Source of the DNA: a virus
IMG/VR virus record: IMGVR_UViG_3300032240_001155
Span: 1-28,854 of that record
Length of the DNA: 28,854 nucleotides
Reading direction: 5' to 3' (one strand)
In this document: positions 3,029 to 20,654 of the stretch, one piece after another
Position numbering within the stretch: the first letter of the stretch is position 1
Layout of the letters: every line of letters begins with the position of its first letter
Notes under the pieces: generated by a model
The model's input: only the letters and a program-made list of their open reading frames with translations
Database searches by the model: none
What the model was told of the DNA's origin: nothing
Program-made: the position numbers and the translations under genes

Positions 3029-3195
3029 AACGAGCAAAACTTAATGTCGTAAAGAGACATTGGATTCAAGTAGGACAGGAACGAGAGCGTGAGCGTATCA
3101 TTCACATCCTAGAGGAAATGCTACACGATAAGAGTGGTGTCAACCTTAGAGGTGCGATATCGCTATTGAAAGGCAAGTATGGTAATCTTAAGTAA
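3016..3195 (+). CDS. Small ERER-motif helical protein
   Basis: A 59-residue basic protein. VGQERERERIIHILEEML in its middle matches the motif in the genes at 2051 and 3781. The ATG overlaps the end of the previous gene by 13 bases and the stop overlaps the start of the adenosyltransferase by 17, so it is embedded in the operon. Function unknown. Confidence 0.75.
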   Translation: MGFIERAKLNVVKRHWIQVGQERERERIIHILEEMLHDKSGVNLRGAISLLKGKYGNLK

Positions 3196-3784
3196 AATAT
3201 ACACCAAGACTGGTGATAATGGAACAACTGCTTTGGGAGATAATTCCAGGGTATCTAAAACTGACCCACTAATTGAAGCATATTCTACAGTAGATGAAGC
3301 AAATGCTGCTATTGGAATGATTATGGCTTTTGGCACATTTGGGGATAATGGTAAAAACGTTCTTGATAGAATTCAAAATGAATTATTTGATGTAGGTGCA
3401 GACCTGTGCACTCCATATGTTCCTAATGATGGTAGATTAAGAATCACTGAGTATATGGTTACACATCTTGAAAAAGATATAGACCTATACAATGCAACTC
3501 TGGAACCTTTAAGGTCGTTCGTAATGCCTGGAGGTAACCAGACTTCTGCCCTGTTCCACGTTGCTAGAACAATTGTTCGAAGAGCAGAACGCAGGGTATG
3601 GAATGTAACTGGAAGAGAAGTAAATCCTCTAGTAGCACAATACCTAAATAGATTGTCAGACTTGTTCTTCGTAATGGCTAGATTCTACAATGAGAATGAA
3701 GTGCTATGGACTCCAGGTGGAGAAGTCGCTTTTGAAGAGATGCATCCACCAAAGCGTTTCAGAGATATAGGTAACGCTGAATGA
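3179..3784 (+). CDS. pduO: PduO-type ATP:cob(I)alamin adenosyltransferase
   Basis: A 201-residue full-length PduO-family enzyme, which transfers the adenosyl group of ATP to cob(I)alamin to make coenzyme B12 in the cytoplasm. Family hallmarks are in order: KIYTKTGDNGTTALGD (ATP-binding N-terminal loop, residues 6-21), RRAERR (134-139) and YLNRLSDLFFVMAR (155-168), forming the helical bundle active site. GAAAGG precedes the ATG by five bases, and the start overlaps the preceding ORF while its stop overlaps the next (ATGA). Its place inside a phage operon makes it a metabolic gene carried by the phage. A B12-dependent class II ribonucleotide reductase is the obvious client, but none lies in this window. 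No cobalamin riboswitch is seen upstream. Confidence 0.93.
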   Translation: MVILSKIYTKTGDNGTTALGDNSRVSKTDPLIEAYSTVDEANAAIGMIMAFGTFGDNGKNVLDRIQNELFDVGADLCTPYVPNDGRLRITEYMVTHLEKDIDLYNATLEPLRSFVMPGGNQTSALFHVARTIVRRAERRVWNVTGREVNPLVAQYLNRLSDLFFVMARFYNENEVLWTPGGEVAFEEMHPPKRFRDIGNAE

Positions 3785-16484: not shown

Positions 16485-16524
16485 AAAAAAGTTATCCACA
16501 GGGGATAACCTGCTTGTGGATAAC
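16485..16524 (-). terminator. Terminator whose stem is two inverted DnaA boxes
   Basis: GTTATCCACA (16491-16500) and TGTGGATAAC (16515-16524) pair perfectly; TTTTTTGCGCC follows on the minus strand. Each arm contains an exact DnaA-box 9-mer (TTATCCACA). Confidence 0.8.
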
Positions 16525-16655
16525 TACTTAGTAGTCTTTATCTTAGCGTCAGGGTGCTCTGCTCTAAACTTCGCAATGTCATAGTAGTGAATGGCAGAAA
16601 CAACTAGGCTTCCGTTTAGAGTGTATTCAAATAGGATGTATGGATTCTTTGGCAT
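16524..16655 (-). CDS. Small VVSAIHY-family protein
   Basis: A 43-residue basic protein with YILFEYTLNGSLVVSAIHYYDIAK at residues 6-29. It is paralogous to 20352..20486, which has YTLVEYT...VVSAIHYLDFWKF at the same positions. AAAGGG lies six bases before the chosen ATG; an ATG five codons upstream (16670) is an alternative. The leader carries the repeated GAGCCTAGCAAATAA element inside a long stem. Function unknown. Confidence 0.75.
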   Translation of the reverse strand: MPKNPYILFEYTLNGSLVVSAIHYYDIAKFRAEHPDAKIKTTK

Positions 16656-16685: not shown

Positions 16686-16750
16686 AGGAGAGAGATTTAT
16701 TTGCTAGGCTCACCCTTTCGGGATTATTTGCTAGGCTCTTTCTCTCTCCT
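16686..16750 (-). repeat. Structured leader with duplicated GAGCCTAGCAAATAA element
   Basis: Outer stem AGGAGAGAG/CTCTCTCCT; inside, two exact copies of GAGCCTAGCAAATAA (16697-16711 and 16724-16738, minus strand) flank a CCC-GAAA-GGG hairpin. Related pairs occur at 18336-18379 and 20538-20580, with a degenerate copy at 18771-18823. Likely a cis-acting RNA element. Confidence 0.75.
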
Positions 16751-16762
16751 GCTGATACTATA

Positions 16763-16786
16763 AGTATAAACCCTACCACCGACATT
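16763..16786 (-). promoter_or_regulatory. Minus-strand promoter module (for gene 16524..16655)
   Basis: TATACT (16763-16768), seven bases, AATGTCGGTGG; about 105-base structured leader follows. Confidence 0.8.
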
Positions 16787-16812
16787 TTAGTTAGATTAGA
16801 TAGTGTTTTTGG

Positions 16813-16841
16813 CATTGTTTACCTATTGTTAACCTATTGTT
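16813..16841 (-). repeat. Iteron-like direct repeats AACAATAGGT
   Basis: Two exact ACCTATTGTT copies (16821-16830, 16832-16841; AACAATAGGT on the minus strand) at 11-base spacing plus a partial third (16813-16820). Single copies at 19069-19078 and 20664-20673. Located upstream of promoter modules. Confidence 0.65.
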
Positions 16842-16863
16842 CATTTAGTAAATTCGGTGCGCC

Positions 16864-16896
16864 GAAAATTTTGGTGTATTCCATTTCTGGAATACA
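16864..16896 (-). terminator. Rho-independent terminator
   Basis: TGTATTCCA/TGGAATACA stem, followed by CCAAAATTTTCGGCGC on the minus strand, just past the stop at 16903. Confidence 0.75.
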
Positions 16897-16902
16897 ACCA
16901 GA

Positions 16903-17058
16903 CTAAAATCTACAAATGTGATTTTGGATTTCAGTTTTCATTTCAGCGGTAGTGCGAGTAGCCAACTCAGTGCCACACTCAGCACAATCCGCAATGTAGT
17001 AGCGGTCGTCCCAGTGTAGCGGAATGATAACGCCGTTATCTAGTTTTACAACACTCAT
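16903..17058 (-). CDS. Small zinc-finger-like protein
   Basis: A 51-residue protein with CAECGTE near residues 25-31 and H-I-C near 47-49: a CxxC...HxC zinc site. The N-terminus is VVKLDNGVIIPLHWDDRYYI, probably a small beta sheet. The ATG overlaps the upstream stop (TAATG). Function unknown. Confidence 0.75.
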   Translation of the reverse strand: MSVVKLDNGVIIPLHWDDRYYIADCAECGTELATRTTAEMKTEIQNHICRF

Positions 17059-17225
17059 TAGTTTCCTTTCTTGCTGTTTATGATTTTGATTAGGGTTGCT
17101 TTATCGGTGTGAGCAAGTAGCAAACCTAGAAAGCGAGCATAAGTCATTCCCAAGTCATCAGTAGGATTTTGCTCTTTGAGAATAGCAACTAGTTCATCTT
17201 GTAGTTGAGTGAATGTTTGTTCCAT
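17058..17225 (-). CDS. 55-residue helical protein
   Basis: MEQTFTQLQDELVAILKEQN onward: helical, with MTYARFLGLLLAHTDKATLIK. The start at 17225 is chosen because the 17445 gene has the same leader and length. Leader: ATCAAAAGAAATGGAAAATAAA, in which an in-frame ATG four codons upstream is an alternative start. Coupled to 16903..17058. Confidence 0.65.
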   Translation of the reverse strand: MEQTFTQLQDELVAILKEQNPTDDLGMTYARFLGLLLAHTDKATLIKIINSKKGN

Positions 17226-17253
17226 TTTATTTTCCATTTCTTTTGATAGTTCC

Positions 17254-17277
17254 ATTATAGCGGTAGCCACTGACATT
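17254..17277 (-). promoter_or_regulatory. Minus-strand promoter module (for 17225-to-16903 unit)
   Basis: TATAAT (17254-17259), seven bases, AATGTCAGTGG. Abuts the stop of the upstream gene. Confidence 0.85.
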
Positions 17278-17445
17278 TTACCATTGGCGTTTTGAACCGA
17301 GAGCCTTGACTGCTCTGGTTAGGCGAGTGGCTTCGTCAATCTCACGCTGGCTAACATTGTAGTCCATACGCTCAAAGTAGGCGAGCATTGTTTCCAACTC
17401 ACGCTCAAGGGCTGGAAGGTCTAGAAGGTCTTTTAGGTTATTCAT
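17278..17445 (-). CDS. 55-residue helical protein
   Basis: MNNLKDLLDLPALERELETM onward: a coiled-coil-like charged helix followed by a basic end (RAVKALGSKRQW). AGAAATGAA precedes the ATG. Its leader (ATCAAAAGAAATGAGAAATGAA) matches that of 17225 in layout. Function unknown. Confidence 0.7.
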   Translation of the reverse strand: MNNLKDLLDLPALERELETMLAYFERMDYNVSQREIDEATRLTRAVKALGSKRQW

Positions 17446-17473
17446 TTCATTTCTCATTTCTTTTGATACTGTC

Positions 17474-17497
17474 AGTATAGCAGGGGGGTAGGACATT
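17474..17497 (-). promoter_or_regulatory. Minus-strand promoter module, divergent box (for gene 17278..17445)
   Basis: TATACT (17474-17479), seven bases, AATGTCCTACC; the right half of the box is altered. Confidence 0.7.
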
Positions 17498-17562
17498 TAT
17501 TGTCTAAAACACGCCTATTTAGACATTTACTAGGTGAACATTAGGTGAACAAATCGGGGCGC

Positions 17563-17588
17563 AAAAATTTTGGGGGCGAACCCAAAAT
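17563..17588 (-). terminator. Rho-independent terminator
   Basis: ATTTTGGG-TTCGCC-CCCAAAAT stem then TTTTTGCGCCCCGA on the minus strand, ten bases past the stop at 17598. Confidence 0.8.
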
Positions 17589-17597
17589 CTTTTACTT

Positions 17598-17804
17598 TTA
17601 CTTTTTGCGTGAGTGAATTATAAATCCAACTGCCAGAGCAAGCGAACCAATTACAAATTCAGTTCCAATCAAGGACCACTGACCAGATAAAACATTGTAG
17701 TTTTCTTGGTCGTTGATGATGGCGGTATAGTTGTAAGCGTCAGCAATTACAAAACTAAAAATTCCTAGAATTAGAGTTGAGATTACAAGAGCAATTTTTA
17801 CCAT
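17598..17804 (-). CDS. Two-pass membrane protein
   Basis: A 68-residue protein with hydrophobic helices at about 4-22 (ALVISTLILGIFSFVIA) and 46-64 (GTEFVIGSLALAVGFII) and a basic end (HSRKK). Aromatic loop between. AAGGA precedes the ATG, which overlaps the upstream TAA (TAATG). Third gene of the unit from 18084. Role unknown; host-membrane targeting is an inference. Confidence 0.75.
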   Translation of the reverse strand: MVKIALVISTLILGIFSFVIADAYNYTAIINDQENYNVLSGQWSLIGTEFVIGSLALAVGFIIHSRKK

Positions 17805-17899
17805 TAGTTATTTTCCTTTTCATTAGATTTGATTTGAGAGATAAAATCTTCTCGCATTACTTTTTGGATTTCTGCCAAAGCAATTTTCCAATCTTCCAT
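17804..17899 (-). CDS. 31-residue helical protein
   Basis: MEDWKIALAEIQKVMREDFI then SQIKSNEKENN: an amphipathic helix with a polar tail. The start is two bases after the upstream stop and its TAA overlaps the next ATG. GAGAGAT precedes the ATG. Function unknown. Confidence 0.65.
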   Translation of the reverse strand: MEDWKIALAEIQKVMREDFISQIKSNEKENN

Positions 17900-17901
17900 T
17901 T

Positions 17902-18084
17902 TTATCTCTCTTCCATTTTATTTACAATTTCGGCAAGTCTCTTGCGTTGAGTATCATTTAGCATTGACCAGCAAAGACCAGATAGGTAAGGATAAGCGGT
18001 ATCTTTGAATACTGCTGACTTAGTTTTCAACGCTTCTACTACTTCATAGATGTTTGAGTTTTTATCTAACAATTTATTTTCCAT
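17902..18084 (-). CDS. Small hypothetical protein
   Basis: A 60-residue protein: MENKLLDKNSNIYEVVEALK, then YPYLSGLCWSMLNDTQRKRLAEIV. The Trp/Cys core and helical end suggest a compact fold. Its leader resembles those of 17225 and 17445, so a TTG four codons in is an alternative start. First gene of a three-gene unit. Function unknown. Confidence 0.7.
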   Translation of the reverse strand: MENKLLDKNSNIYEVVEALKTKSAVFKDTAYPYLSGLCWSMLNDTQRKRLAEIVNKMEER

Positions 18085-18102
18085 TTCTTTTATTTATTTA
18101 CA

Positions 18103-18126
18103 ATTATACAGGATACCACTGACATT
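18103..18126 (-). promoter_or_regulatory. Minus-strand promoter module (for 18084-to-17598 unit)
   Basis: TATAAT (18103-18108), seven bases, AATGTCAGTGG. Confidence 0.85.
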
Positions 18127-18129
18127 GGA

Positions 18130-18300
18130 CTAACGCTTGCGAGCCAAGCGATAGTTTTCCAACTTAGTTATTCCGTCAAAGCATTTCTCTTTGATGTCAT
18201 AGCGGAAATAGTATTCATTTCCACGATAGATTTGCTTACACTTAGGGCATTCCGCTTCATACTGAATACCGCCATAGTTTCTTTTTTTATAGTAAGTCAT
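18130..18300 (-). CDS. Small zinc-knuckle basic protein
   Basis: A 56-residue basic protein: TYYKKRNYGGIQYEAECPKC then KQIYRGNEYYFRYD and a third Cys near 40; ends RLARKR. One CxxC pair plus a Cys suggests a zinc-stabilised fold. AAAGG lies upstream. Its leader carries the GAGCC-AGCAAATAA repeat pair. Function unknown. Confidence 0.75.
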   Translation of the reverse strand: MTYYKKRNYGGIQYEAECPKCKQIYRGNEYYFRYDIKEKCFDGITKLENYRLARKR

Positions 18301-18335
18301 TTATGACCCTTTCTTTTATCTAAACTTCCAGCAAC

Positions 18336-18379
18336 TTATTTGCTTAGGCTCACCATTTCTGGATTATTTGCTAAGGCTC
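18336..18379 (-). repeat. Leader copy of the GAGCC-AGCAAATAA repeat pair
   Basis: GAGCCTAAGCAAATAA (18336-18351) and GAGCCTTAGCAAATAA (18364-18379), 28 bases apart, flanking a CCAGAAATGG hairpin. It lies between the promoter at 18396 and gene 18130..18300. Confidence 0.75.
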
Positions 18380-18395
18380 ATTTGCTTATGTATCT

Positions 18396-18419
18396 ATTCT
18401 ATACCTAACCACTGACATT
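18396..18419 (-). promoter_or_regulatory. Minus-strand promoter module (for gene 18130..18300)
   Basis: TAGAAT (18396-18401), seven bases, AATGTCAGTGG. Confidence 0.75.
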
Positions 18420-18561
18420 TTACCCCCAAAACACACCTATTTTGTTCATTTTTACGAACATTTATATATTCGTTATCATTTTGTTATAATTCGGGGCGCA
18501 ACTTTTTCTGCGCCCAAAAATTTTTGGAGTAGCAATTTTATTTTGCTAACCAAATTATTTT

Positions 18562-18732
18562 TTATGACATTGCTATAAGCCAAGAGTGGTGATTACACAC
18601 TTCTAACTTTTGGGCAGGTATAGAATAGTCATCCATAGTTCTACCATTGATAGTTTTACTTGGGCGATAGATAGCAACCTTAGTTGCTTCGCTCTCGCAG
18701 TTATCAATTTGACAAGCAATTACATTTTCCAT
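18562..18732 (-). CDS. Small Cys/His protein
   Basis: A 56-residue protein: MENVIACQIDNCESEATKVA at the start (two Cys) and EVCNHHSWLIAMS at the end (Cys and two His), a split C...C...C..HH arrangement typical of small zinc-fold proteins. No promoter of its own is seen; it probably shares the transcript of 18838..18981. Function unknown. Confidence 0.75.
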   Translation of the reverse strand: MENVIACQIDNCESEATKVAIYRPSKTINGRTMDDYSIPAQKLEVCNHHSWLIAMS

Positions 18733-18770
18733 TTATTTCTCATTTCATTTTTAGTTAGTAGTTTAGTTTT

Positions 18771-18823
18771 TTATTTGCTAAAAGTTTATTTGCTATTTTA
18801 CTAGGCTCACCTTTTAGGCTCAC
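18771..18823 (-). repeat. Degenerate copy of the GAGCC-AGCAAATAA element
   Basis: Contains two AGCAAATAAA and two GTGAGCCTA segments on the minus strand, rearranged relative to the other copies. It lies between genes 18838 and 18732. Confidence 0.6.
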
Positions 18824-18837
18824 AAACTAAATAAGTT

Positions 18838-18981
18838 TTATTTGTAGTTTTTCATTTTGAGCAACTTTGAAAGTTCTTCAAACTCAAATCCAGACATAAA
18901 ATCTCCAAACTGAGCAATCCACATCAACTCACGATAGCGAGCATTCTGTTCGTGCGTTAGCACACTTTTTACCTTAGCCAT
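18838..18981 (-). CDS. Small helical hypothetical protein
   Basis: A 47-residue protein: MAKVKSVLTHEQNARYRELM then WIAQFGDFMSGFEFEELSKL. Helical with an aromatic centre. GAAAGG lies upstream of the ATG. Function unknown. Confidence 0.7.
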   Translation of the reverse strand: MAKVKSVLTHEQNARYRELMWIAQFGDFMSGFEFEELSKLLKMKNYK

Positions 18982-19010
18982 TAGTTAGCCTTTCTTTTTA
19001 TCTATTTATT

Positions 19011-19034
19011 ACTCTATACCATACCACCGACATT
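19011..19034 (-). promoter_or_regulatory. Minus-strand promoter module, weak -10 (for 18981-to-18562 unit)
   Basis: TAGAGT (19011-19016), seven bases, AATGTCGGTGG. Confidence 0.7.
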
Positions 19035-19077
19035 TAGGGGACATTTAGGGGTGTTTTGAGATTTGTTTACCTATTGT

Positions 19078-19167
19078 TCATTTAGTTAACTTTTTCTCTG
19101 CTTCTAGGCGGATAGCGTTAGCACGGACGATTTGAGCCATAAGGGCTTTTAGTTGTTTTTCATTCAT
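19078..19167 (-). CDS. 29-residue helical protein, leaderless
   Basis: MNEKQLKALMAQIVRANAIR then LEAEKKLTK: one amphipathic helix. TATACT lies exactly six bases before the ATG. The short length limits confidence, but the promoter-to-start geometry matches five other leaderless minus-strand module promoters in the window. Function unknown. Confidence 0.65.
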   Translation of the reverse strand: MNEKQLKALMAQIVRANAIRLEAEKKLTK

Positions 19168-19173
19168 ACTTAC

Positions 19174-19197
19174 AGTATAAGGGCAACCACCGACATT
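19174..19197 (-). promoter_or_regulatory. Minus-strand promoter module (for gene 19078..19167)
   Basis: TATACT (19174-19179), seven bases, AATGTCGGTGG. Confidence 0.8.
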
Positions 19198-19228
19198 TAA
19201 GGTAGCGACACGCCAGAAAAAACGGCGC

Positions 19229-19260
19229 AAAAATTTGGGGTATGCCATAGGCACACACCC
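19229..19260 (-). terminator. Rho-independent terminator
   Basis: GGGTGTGTGCC/GGCATACCCC imperfect stem then AAATTTTTGCGCCG on the minus strand, directly at the stop of 19261..19443. Confidence 0.7.
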
Positions 19261-19443
19261 TTAGCGAGTAGTCTTAGCCTGATACTCGGCTTCTTTGATA
19301 GCACACACAGCCTTCCAACGGATACCCTTATCCTTAGCCACGAAGTCAATGGCACTATGACCATACCAAGCCTTCTTGACTACTGATAGTTTCTCACCAT
19401 CGGTAGTAGTTCCCATTACACGCCATTCAGTTCCATTACTCAT
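19261..19443 (-). CDS. Small basic hypothetical protein
   Basis: A 60-residue basic protein: MSNGTEWRVMGTTTDGEKLS then VVKKAWYGHSAIDFVAKDKG and a C-terminal IKEAEYQAKTTR helix. Beta-strand start and helical end. AGAAGAAA precedes the ATG. Function unknown. Confidence 0.75.
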   Translation of the reverse strand: MSNGTEWRVMGTTTDGEKLSVVKKAWYGHSAIDFVAKDKGIRWKAVCAIKEAEYQAKTTR

Positions 19444-19471
19444 AGTTTCTTCTTTCTTTCTAACTACTACC

Positions 19472-19495
19472 ATAGTAGCACGACCCACGGACATT
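19472..19495 (-). promoter_or_regulatory. Minus-strand promoter module, variant (for gene 19261..19443)
   Basis: TACTAT (19472-19477), seven bases, AATGTCCGTGG. Confidence 0.65.
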
Positions 19496-19597
19496 TATTA
19501 TCTAGATAAGCATTGTTTTATTAGTTGTTATCAATTCGTTATAAAAAAGGGCGCAAAAAATTGGGGCATATACCAATCCAGGCATATACCCACAATT

Positions 19598-19657
19598 CTA
19601 CTGACTAAGAAATAGCCATACTGCTATACACATACCGCCTATGAGTAGCACCTCCAT
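19598..19657 (-). CDS. 19-residue membrane microprotein
   Basis: Nineteen residues forming one hydrophobic helix (Leu, Ile, Val, Trp, Phe, Gly) with a Ser-Gln end. The ATG overlaps the upstream stop (TAATG). Similar in size and Gln terminus to 7809..7874 and 13271..13339. It is followed by a GGGTATAT...ATATGCCC hairpin and a TTTTTTGCGCCC tract. Coding status rests on the overlap and the recurrence. Confidence 0.5.
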   Translation of the reverse strand: MEVLLIGGMCIAVWLFLSQ

Positions 19658-19812
19658 TAGTTACCACTCAATAGGCTAGTTAGCCAATCGGTAGCCATGT
19701 AGCCAGCCACGCAACCGCCTACACTGCCCCAGTGTATAGAGCCTAGTAGATTCCATGCAAGCAATAAGCCTATGCCTAGCGATGTAAGTATGAAGGGTTT
19801 TTTATTTGTCAT
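19657..19812 (-). CDS. Two-helix membrane protein
   Basis: A 51-residue protein with a hydrophobic helix at about residues 7-24 and a second at 29-41 rich in Gly. The ATG overlaps the end of the previous gene (ATGACAAATAA) and its TAA overlaps the next ATG. Part of a run of membrane proteins (19598-19915). Function unknown. Confidence 0.65.
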   Translation of the reverse strand: MTNKKPFILTSLGIGLLLAWNLLGSIHWGSVGGCVAGYMATDWLTSLLSGN

Positions 19813-19915
19813 TCTTTTCCTTATCCTGCTTAGACTTCTCTAGTTGGTGATTCTTGTGCAGGTAGTAGGCTACTGCTACTACTGCGAGGGTAGTGATGTC
19901 AATACCATTCAGCAT
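19802..19915 (-). CDS. Small single-pass membrane protein
   Basis: A 37-residue protein: short hydrophobic helix (about residues 5-18, DITTLAVVAVAYYL) then a charged tail (HKNHQLEKSKQDKEKNDK). The ATG overlaps the upstream TAA. Resembles 1253..1360 in layout. Function unknown. Confidence 0.65.
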   Translation of the reverse strand: MLNGIDITTLAVVAVAYYLHKNHQLEKSKQDKEKNDK

Positions 19916-20079
19916 TAGATACCTTCCTTACAGTTACACTTGCTTACAGTTATACGATTGTCCTTTAGCGATACATACGCTAGAGAACTACATGCCTTAC
20001 ATGCATACGCCTTGATGATAGGCATAGCCTTAGTGCGTAGTGTCTTGATTGTGGTTAGTGCTAATAGTGATAGTCCCAT
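19915..20079 (-). CDS. Small zinc-knuckle protein
   Basis: A 54-residue protein: MGLSLLALTTIKTLRTKAMP then YACKACSSLAYVSL and KCNCKEG, two CxxC/CxC pairs near residues 27-30 and 48-50 (probable zinc ribbon). AAGG lies upstream. An ATG seven codons upstream (20100) overlaps the previous stop and is an alternative start. Confidence 0.7.
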   Translation of the reverse strand: MGLSLLALTTIKTLRTKAMPIIKAYACKACSSLAYVSLKDNRITVSKCNCKEGI

Positions 20080-20093
20080 TGTGTTACCCTTCT

Positions 20094-20279
20094 TTACCAT
20101 AGGTGAGATGTAGAGTTGCCCAATACCTCAAAAGCAAAGGTAGCATTAGGCTTGTCTGCTAGTAGAGCCTTAGTGTTGTTGATGATAGTCTCTGCTGCTT
20201 CCCATGAGTGAACCTCATAGACAGGGTGCAGTTCAGTAGTGCCAGTGAAGATGTGGATTACGAGTGATGTGATGTTCAT
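20094..20279 (-). CDS. Small hypothetical protein
   Basis: A 61-residue protein: MNITSLVIHIFTGTTELHPV then an EVHSWEAAETIINNTKALLA helix and an FAFEVLGNSTSHLW strand. The strand-helix-strand layout again recalls the DpnD/PcfM-like minifold. AAAGAAAG precedes the ATG. First gene of a unit running to 19598. Confidence 0.7.
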   Translation of the reverse strand: MNITSLVIHIFTGTTELHPVYEVHSWEAAETIINNTKALLADKPNATFAFEVLGNSTSHLW

Positions 20280-20317
20280 TAGTTTATTCTTTCTTTAGTA
20301 GGGGTTATTACTATTCT

Positions 20318-20341
20318 ATTATACAGGGTGCTACTGACATT
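20318..20341 (-). promoter_or_regulatory. Minus-strand promoter module (for 20279-to-19598 unit)
   Basis: TATAAT (20318-20323), seven bases, AATGTCAGTAG. Confidence 0.8.
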
Positions 20342-20351
20342 TATTATGCCA

Positions 20352-20486
20352 TTACTTTTTGATTACGACAGCATCTTTGTGCTCTGACATGAACTTCCAA
20401 AAGTCTAGATAGTGGATTGCTGAAACAACACGCTGGTTGCCAAAGGTGTATTCTACTAGTGTGTATTTCTTAGATTCTGATGACAT
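20352..20486 (-). CDS. Small VVSAIHY-family protein
   Basis: A 44-residue protein: MSSESKKYTLVEYTFGNQRV then VSAIHYLDFWKFMSEHKDAV. Paralogue of 16524..16655; the shared core is EYT-x5-VVSAIHY-x-D-x-x-KF-x-x-EH-x-DA. GGAAAATA lies upstream. An overlapping 8-codon ORF begins 16 bases upstream. Function unknown. Confidence 0.75.
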   Translation of the reverse strand: MSSESKKYTLVEYTFGNQRVVSAIHYLDFWKFMSEHKDAVVIKK

Positions 20487-20514
20487 TATTTTCCATTTCT
20501 TTTGTTATGTATCT

Positions 20515-20538
20515 ATTATACAAGAGACCACCGACATT
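20515..20538 (-). promoter_or_regulatory. Minus-strand promoter module (for gene 20352..20486)
   Basis: TATAAT (20515-20520), seven bases, AATGTCGGTGG. It overlaps the edge of the repeat pair. Confidence 0.85.
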
Positions 20539-20580
20539 TATTTGATAGGCTCACCGATTACTCGTTTATTTGCTATGCTC
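20538..20580 (-). repeat. Copy of the GAGCC-AGCAAATAA repeat pair
   Basis: GAGCCTATCAAATAA (20538-20552) and GAGCATAGCAAATAA (20566-20580), 28 bases apart. It lies downstream of the TTGACA promoter at 20624-20654 and upstream of the next gene's promoter. Confidence 0.7.
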
Positions 20581-20623
20581 ACTGTCTTGTGGCTTCTTGA
20601 TGTTTCTTTATTTATTTATACTT

Positions 20624-20654
20624 ATAGTATGACATACAATCTAGTATTTGTCAA
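20624..20654 (-). promoter_or_regulatory. Promoter with no coding gene behind it
   Basis: TTGACA (20649-20654) and CATACT or TACTAT at 17-19 bases. Downstream is only the repeat pair, so a leader or small RNA of about 80-110 bases is possible. Confidence 0.55.

Follow-up and report, generated by a model that had tools for sequence, protein, structure and literature searches.

The window analysed here is the whole of a 28,854-bp IMG/VR virus record, IMGVR_UViG_3300032240_001155. From ∼21.1 kb down to 4.9 kb it contains mostly small genes on the minus strand, several of them separated by terminators that consist of a hairpin followed by TTTTTGCGC, and inside this array a first-pass annotation had reported paired short repeats flanking small hairpins. 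We conclude, from sequence comparison, that these repeats belong to a new and previously undescribed family of structured 5′-leader RNAs. The repeats themselves are where they had been placed: GAGCCTAGCAAATAA is found exactly at 16697–16711 and 16724–16738 and with one mismatch at 20538–20552 and 20566–20580, in both cases on the minus strand, and the pattern CAAATAA-N8-28-TGAGC-N3-7-CAAATAA occurs only at 16697–16730, 18336–18370, and 20538–20572, again on the minus strand, compared with 0.00 occurrences in 100 shuffled sequences. With the element at 18771 described below there are four elements in 29 kb, which makes the window element-rich, and all four are on the minus strand in the same sense as the minus-strand genes.

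Element 1 (16686–16750, minus strand) is enclosed by a perfect 10-bp outer stem (AGGAGAGAGA/UCUCUCUCCU), as had been noticed earlier for this copy, followed inward by the loop (AAA)GAGC/CAAAUAAA, a CUAG/CUAG helix, the loop CAAAUAAU/UGAGC, and the hairpin CCC-GAAA-GGG. Behind it is an open reading frame (ORF) of 43 amino acids (16527–16655, minus strand; MPKNPYILFEYTLNGSLVVSAIHYYDIAKFRAEHPDAKIKTTK), homologues of which stand behind elements at loci L253, L254, and L258. Element 2 (18326–18388, minus strand) comprises an outer stem in the GCAA/UUGC region, UGAGC, a CUUAG/CUAAG helix, the hairpin CCA-GAAA-UGG, and CAAAUAA, and the AUG of the 56-amino-acid ORF behind it (18130–18300, minus strand) lies inside a GUCA-UAAA-UGAC hairpin. 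Element 3 (20524–20595, minus strand) has an outer stem of CCAC..GACA/UGUC.GUGG, then UGAGC, an AUAG/CUAU helix, the hairpin CGA-GUAA-UCG, and CAAAUAA. This copy had been described as following a promoter that has no gene. A sigma70-like promoter, TTGACA-17-CATACT, is indeed predicted upstream of it (20626–20654, minus strand), but the 3′ strand of the element's outer stem extends into the TGTCGG box of a second promoter, and this promoter is followed by a 44-amino-acid ORF (20352–20486, minus strand) that is a paralogue of the element-1 ORF (58% identity over 33 amino acids). Element 4 (18757–18836, minus strand), which had been taken for a degenerate copy, is an intact two-loop element and precedes a 56-amino-acid ORF (18562–18732, minus strand). 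At 18771–18822 it reads H1(UUUAGUUU/AAACUAAA)-GUGAGC-CUAAAAG-G-UGAGC-CUA(GUAAAA)UAG-CAAAUAA-A-CUUUUAG-CAAAUAA-H1′, in which CUAAAAG/CUUUUAG forms a 7-bp middle helix below the apical hairpin CUA-GUAAAA-UAG. Relatives show compensatory changes, the counterparts of the middle helix being CUAAUUAG/CUAAUUAG in L069 and CUAAUAAG/CUUAUUAG in L253, and the apical stems of these two CUA/UAG and CGA/UCG. A covariance model (R2) recovers all four elements, element 4 at E ∼1e-4, and the three elements examined for a promoter (1, 2, and 3) each stand behind a predicted one, either called by script or visible.

Most of the statistics that follow come from loci found via the motif itself, a viral scan with which yielded at least 120 of them. 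Two samples are less circular, namely a set of two-copy elements in which pairing and some loop positions were left free, and a set of loci fetched through the GP88 protein. Counts of elements are counts of unique sequences and not of independent events, and promoters, transcription starts, Shine-Dalgarno (SD) sites, and ORFs are predictions throughout.

When two-copy elements were collected without any demand for pairing, the cores of the two copies were complementary in 120 of 122 unique elements; 56 of the 120 were complementary but not identical, and none was identical but not complementary. Because non-palindromic cores are complementary rather than identical, the pairs are to be read as RNA and not as a direct repeat in DNA, and the fold that they indicate is one in which the cores base-pair around an apical hairpin that is often of the GNRA type (on the sense strand, about half of the apical loops resemble GNRA). 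Compensatory changes, the lack of which had been set beforehand as the refuting test, are abundant. In an alignment of 29 sequences, 11 of the 13 pairs are altered on both sides, the covariation score is 0.529 versus 0.122 ± 0.018 after shuffling, and 92.5% of the alignment cells are paired, compared with 65.7% in shuffled alignments and 21–48% in controls with slid partners. Two-sided changes were seen in 82 cells, a number matched in 0 of 500 shuffles, and RNAalifold, unaided, recovers 10 pairs of the proposed helices. Thermodynamic z-scores were less informative, as only element 1 clearly beats its shuffled counterparts (z = −3.3). Since the other three window elements are not significant, the structural evidence is covariation and not stability, and fold stability was dropped as an argument.

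The bases in the loops are almost invariant even at positions that the search left partly unconstrained. The loop of the first copy is AAAUAA in 106 and GAAUAA in three cases (n = 109), and that of the second copy is AAAU in 74, GAAU in 34, and AAGU in one (n = 109). Core pairing and loop-base conservation together argue that the unit is a repeated internal loop, which we describe as the asymmetric loop 5′-UGAGC/CRAAUAA-3′ set between helices that vary freely in sequence and length provided that pairing is kept. In full, the unit reads 5′-[helix]-(R)-UGAGC-[helix]...[helix′]-CRAAUAA-(R′)-[helix′]-3′, and among 165 modules the R.R′ position, often a mismatch, is A.G in 64 and G.A in 23. An element contains one to three such loops, nested within each other, and two is the commonest number. 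The one-loop form is exemplified by L257, GGGGAUAGG-GUGAGC-CUG-GAAA-CAG-CAAAUAA-ACCUAUCCCC, and three nested loops are present in L009, L039, and L265.

An SD-like site and an ORF start (≥25 codons) follow within 330 nucleotides (nt) in 163 of 172 unique elements, at a median of 57 nt, and upstream of 131 of the 172 there is a promoter-like pair of boxes at fixed spacing (TTGAC-18-TAnnnT in 76 and TGTCRG-10-TAnnnT in 55). Ahead of the element, a 5′ tail of mostly 17–27 nt is predicted for the TTGAC class and a shorter one for the TGTCRG class. The elements are placed in sense orientation between a predicted promoter and a start codon, as is characteristic of a cis-regulatory 5′ leader. The first-pass annotation had allowed for either an RNA motif or a small RNA family, and the former is preferred over a free small RNA because a start codon lies within 120 nt downstream in 131 of 152 cases on the sense strand versus 11 of 152 on the antisense strand. 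The small ORFs downstream belong to at least 46 unrelated families as defined by blastp linkage, one of which includes the window genes 16655–16527 and 20486–20352. In L253, the promoter and RNA of element 1 recur at 96% identity, but ahead of a different gene and out of order. A 49-nt stretch of element 2 is found unchanged in both L258 and L103; the gene behind it, as read in L258, is a homologue of the element-1 gene. These comparisons show a leader that is transferred, along with its promoter, from one gene to another, unrelated one, seemingly as a cassette.

A module finder run over 4.0 Mb of fetched phage DNA identified 241 elements, compared with 0 when the same sequence was reversed, and among loci fetched solely via GP88, the product of an unrelated gene, an element is present in 34 of 80. 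Records of ∼60–115 kb usually contain one element and sometimes two or three. When 84,980 prokaryote genomes were scanned with the two-copy pattern (cores of type CU..G only), a single contig matched, and this carries phage-like small genes within a metagenome-assembled genome labelled Flavobacteriia. Two element sequences and the proteins of two leader genes were searched against 50,697 phage records; nothing convincing emerged, and so no cultured-phage counterpart. The earlier description of the motif as unclassified is borne out, in that Rfam 15 at the gathering threshold detects only a tRNA in the window and at E ≤ 10 nothing plausible at five loci, and literature searches did not find a description of it. 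As to the hosts, the closest named relatives of the window GP88 (PF17338) are mycobacteriophage and Streptomyces phage proteins, and other window proteins, including DUF932 and tail proteins, also point to an actinobacterial phage. WhiB, an actinophage marker (PMC10202952, PMC6802176), is present in 12 of the 20 related records searched. Judging from WhiB and GP88, the hosts of this phage group are probably Actinobacteria, mostly from freshwater.

We tentatively favor the view that the element is a cis-acting structured 5′-leader RNA that likely serves as a receptor for a shared factor and thereby places the small genes under post-transcriptional control. Each internal loop would be a putative binding site, and two or three stacked loops would provide higher avidity. 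The reader would have to be shared because the genes that are served are unrelated and there are usually only one or two elements per genome; unrelated genes cannot each encode a protein that recognizes this one RNA. Such a common factor would most likely come from the host, as an RNA-binding protein or a component of its expression machinery, or else be a factor widespread in these phages, and its binding would control translation of the mRNA and/or its lifetime. A post-transcriptional outcome is favored because U-run attenuators are absent before the start codon (a T5+ run lies between element and start codon in 0 of 145 leaders) and because AUG-straddling hairpins with stems of ≥5 bp are enriched, being found at 37% of the starts behind elements but at 8% of other starts and 4.5% of shuffled ones. 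It is also possible, and we put this forward with somewhat more reserve, that the modular stack of identical loop receptors, carried as a promoter-plus-leader cassette, recruits a host factor, which could be RNA polymerase, the ribosome, or an RNA-binding protein of global reach, and in phages of Actinobacteria thereby drives the expression of whichever small gene follows or sets its timing.

Several observations weigh against the favored reading. Hairpins at the AUG are also found at homologous genes that lack the element, so that the association between element and hairpin may be indirect. No competing pairing or switch was evident in the 15 folds looked at, in which the element is a closed hairpin. 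Its distance is fixed to the promoter and not to the AUG, which is 27–194 nt away, an arrangement unsuited to direct control of the ribosome site, and the shared trans factor is itself an entity that we infer. The AUG-straddling hairpins show a regularity of their own, exemplified by GAAGTC-CAAAAT-GACTTC, in that the noncoding arm changes along with codons 2–3 (for example, at L323, L055, L179, and window position 18300). Behind the elements, the SD is often base-paired inside a hairpin at the AUG, of which the element forms no part.

The promoter-proximal position would also suit an antiterminator of the type encoded by putL and putR of phage HK022. Such an RNA, once folded shortly past the promoter, would bind the β′ zinc-binding domain of the polymerase that is making it, which would then ignore later terminators. 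The put RNAs are likewise phage-encoded, cis-acting stem-loop RNAs of ∼70 nt near promoters, and putL consists of two stem-loops just past PL, with two put sites per genome (PMC9378689). The present element is similarly confined to phages with usually one or two copies per genome, follows directly after predicted promoters in sense orientation irrespective of the gene downstream, and in the window lies in an array studded with intrinsic terminators. However, its transcription units appear to be self-contained: the median distance to the next promoter is 777 nt, and enrichment of sense terminators is confined to the interval 500–1000 nt downstream (0.29 versus 0.06 antisense per element), where they apparently mark normal unit ends, without clear sign of an arrangement for suppression. 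Moreover, many array genes have a promoter but no element, the hosts are probably Actinobacteria, and the architecture is a single coaxial stack in which the same internal loop occurs one, two, or three times, in contrast to the two side-by-side hairpins of put. We therefore regard antitermination as unlikely, though not negligible.

A generic structure that stabilizes the mRNA or acts as a translation standby site through its fold alone would account for a 5′-proximal hairpin in the leaders of small genes, and outer stems can be very stable, as in element 1. It would have no need for near-invariant loop bases, though, and neither the three window elements that are no more stable than shuffled sequence nor the predicted single-stranded 5′ tail of ∼17–27 nt favors it, so we consider it distinctly doubtful. 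The highly conserved asymmetric loops, their tandem arrangement, and the leader position might instead suggest a riboswitch for a metabolite or ion in which one, two, or three aptamers are stacked. A pathway-linked riboswitch is ruled out by the unrelated downstream ORFs, and a riboswitch in general is improbable given that at least 46 small ORF families share no pathway, that neither a terminator before the start nor an alternative pairing is visible in the leaders and folds looked at, and that the pattern scanned matched only the one phage-like contig among the prokaryote genomes. Placement of the same RNA ahead of unrelated ORFs, with four copies in the window, is what might be seen if the transcript were a decoy that titrates a host RNA-binding protein and the ORFs were passengers, but with usually one or two copies per genome and an SD-like site plus ORF behind nearly every element this is very improbable. 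Finally, some elements do contain two near-identical direct copies, as would a repeat operator or recombination site acting at the DNA level. The direct-repeat or operator reading is ruled out by the complementarity of the cores (56 to 0), and with GNRA-like apical loops on the sense strand and a strong orientation bias as well, a DNA-level element of any kind is scarcely credible.

The element has partial parallels among known systems. Phage translational operators such as the MS2 replicase hairpin are phage hairpins read by a protein, and AUG-straddling hairpins are found in the element-bearing leaders; unlike such operators, the conserved element is located tens of nt upstream of the AUG and before unrelated genes. 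Tandem-aptamer and other tandem-module RNAs repeat a recognition module within one leader, whereas the modules of this element are nested in one helix, share strands, and vary in number from one to three among relatives. The element resembles the cis-regulatory families of Rfam and orphan leader motifs from metagenomes in being a covarying 5′ leader with near-invariant loop bases, but it is linked to many unrelated small phage ORFs and not to a pathway. It represents a clear-cut RNA structure that is widespread in environmental phages and has an unusual stacked-loop design, and the covariance model and loop consensus offer a means of annotating a hypervariable region of these phages that is made up of small orphan genes. 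That the element precedes unrelated genes points to a shared factor, one that should be retrievable biochemically, and as cultured phages of 'Ca. Nanopelagicales' now exist (PMC10202952), related systems may become testable.

Additional features were noted in the same regions. The TGTCRG-10-TAnnnT box precedes many array genes, with 25 copies in the window, at 4.9–20.5 kb and all on the minus strand. Across loci, the strict TGTCRG-N10-TATAAT box has a spacer of 10 in 341 cases and any other spacer of 5–19 in at most 10, and it may constitute a promoter class specific to phages. Another hairpin found in leaders, whose loop is AGG or AAGG (TTGAGAAAGGTTCTCAA, TTGCTAAAGGTTAGCAA), stands just before the SD AGAAAGG in L183, L181, and L167, among others, and resembles either a standby SD or a second family of leaders. 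The DnaA-box-like sequences TTATCCACA/TGTGGATAA make up terminator stems and intergenic regions, as seen at 16490–16530 of the window and between the genes of relatives. Intergenic TGTGA-N6-TCACA palindromes resembling CRP/GlxR sites were seen in L003, L035, G009, G014, and others, and the same palindrome also forms the apical stem of some elements (for example, UGUGACUAGUAUCACA). Elsewhere, the window encodes a cobalamin adenosyltransferase (3179–3784; PF01923, E 2e-60) and a pyrimidine dimer DNA glycosylase-like protein (2305–2802; PF03013).

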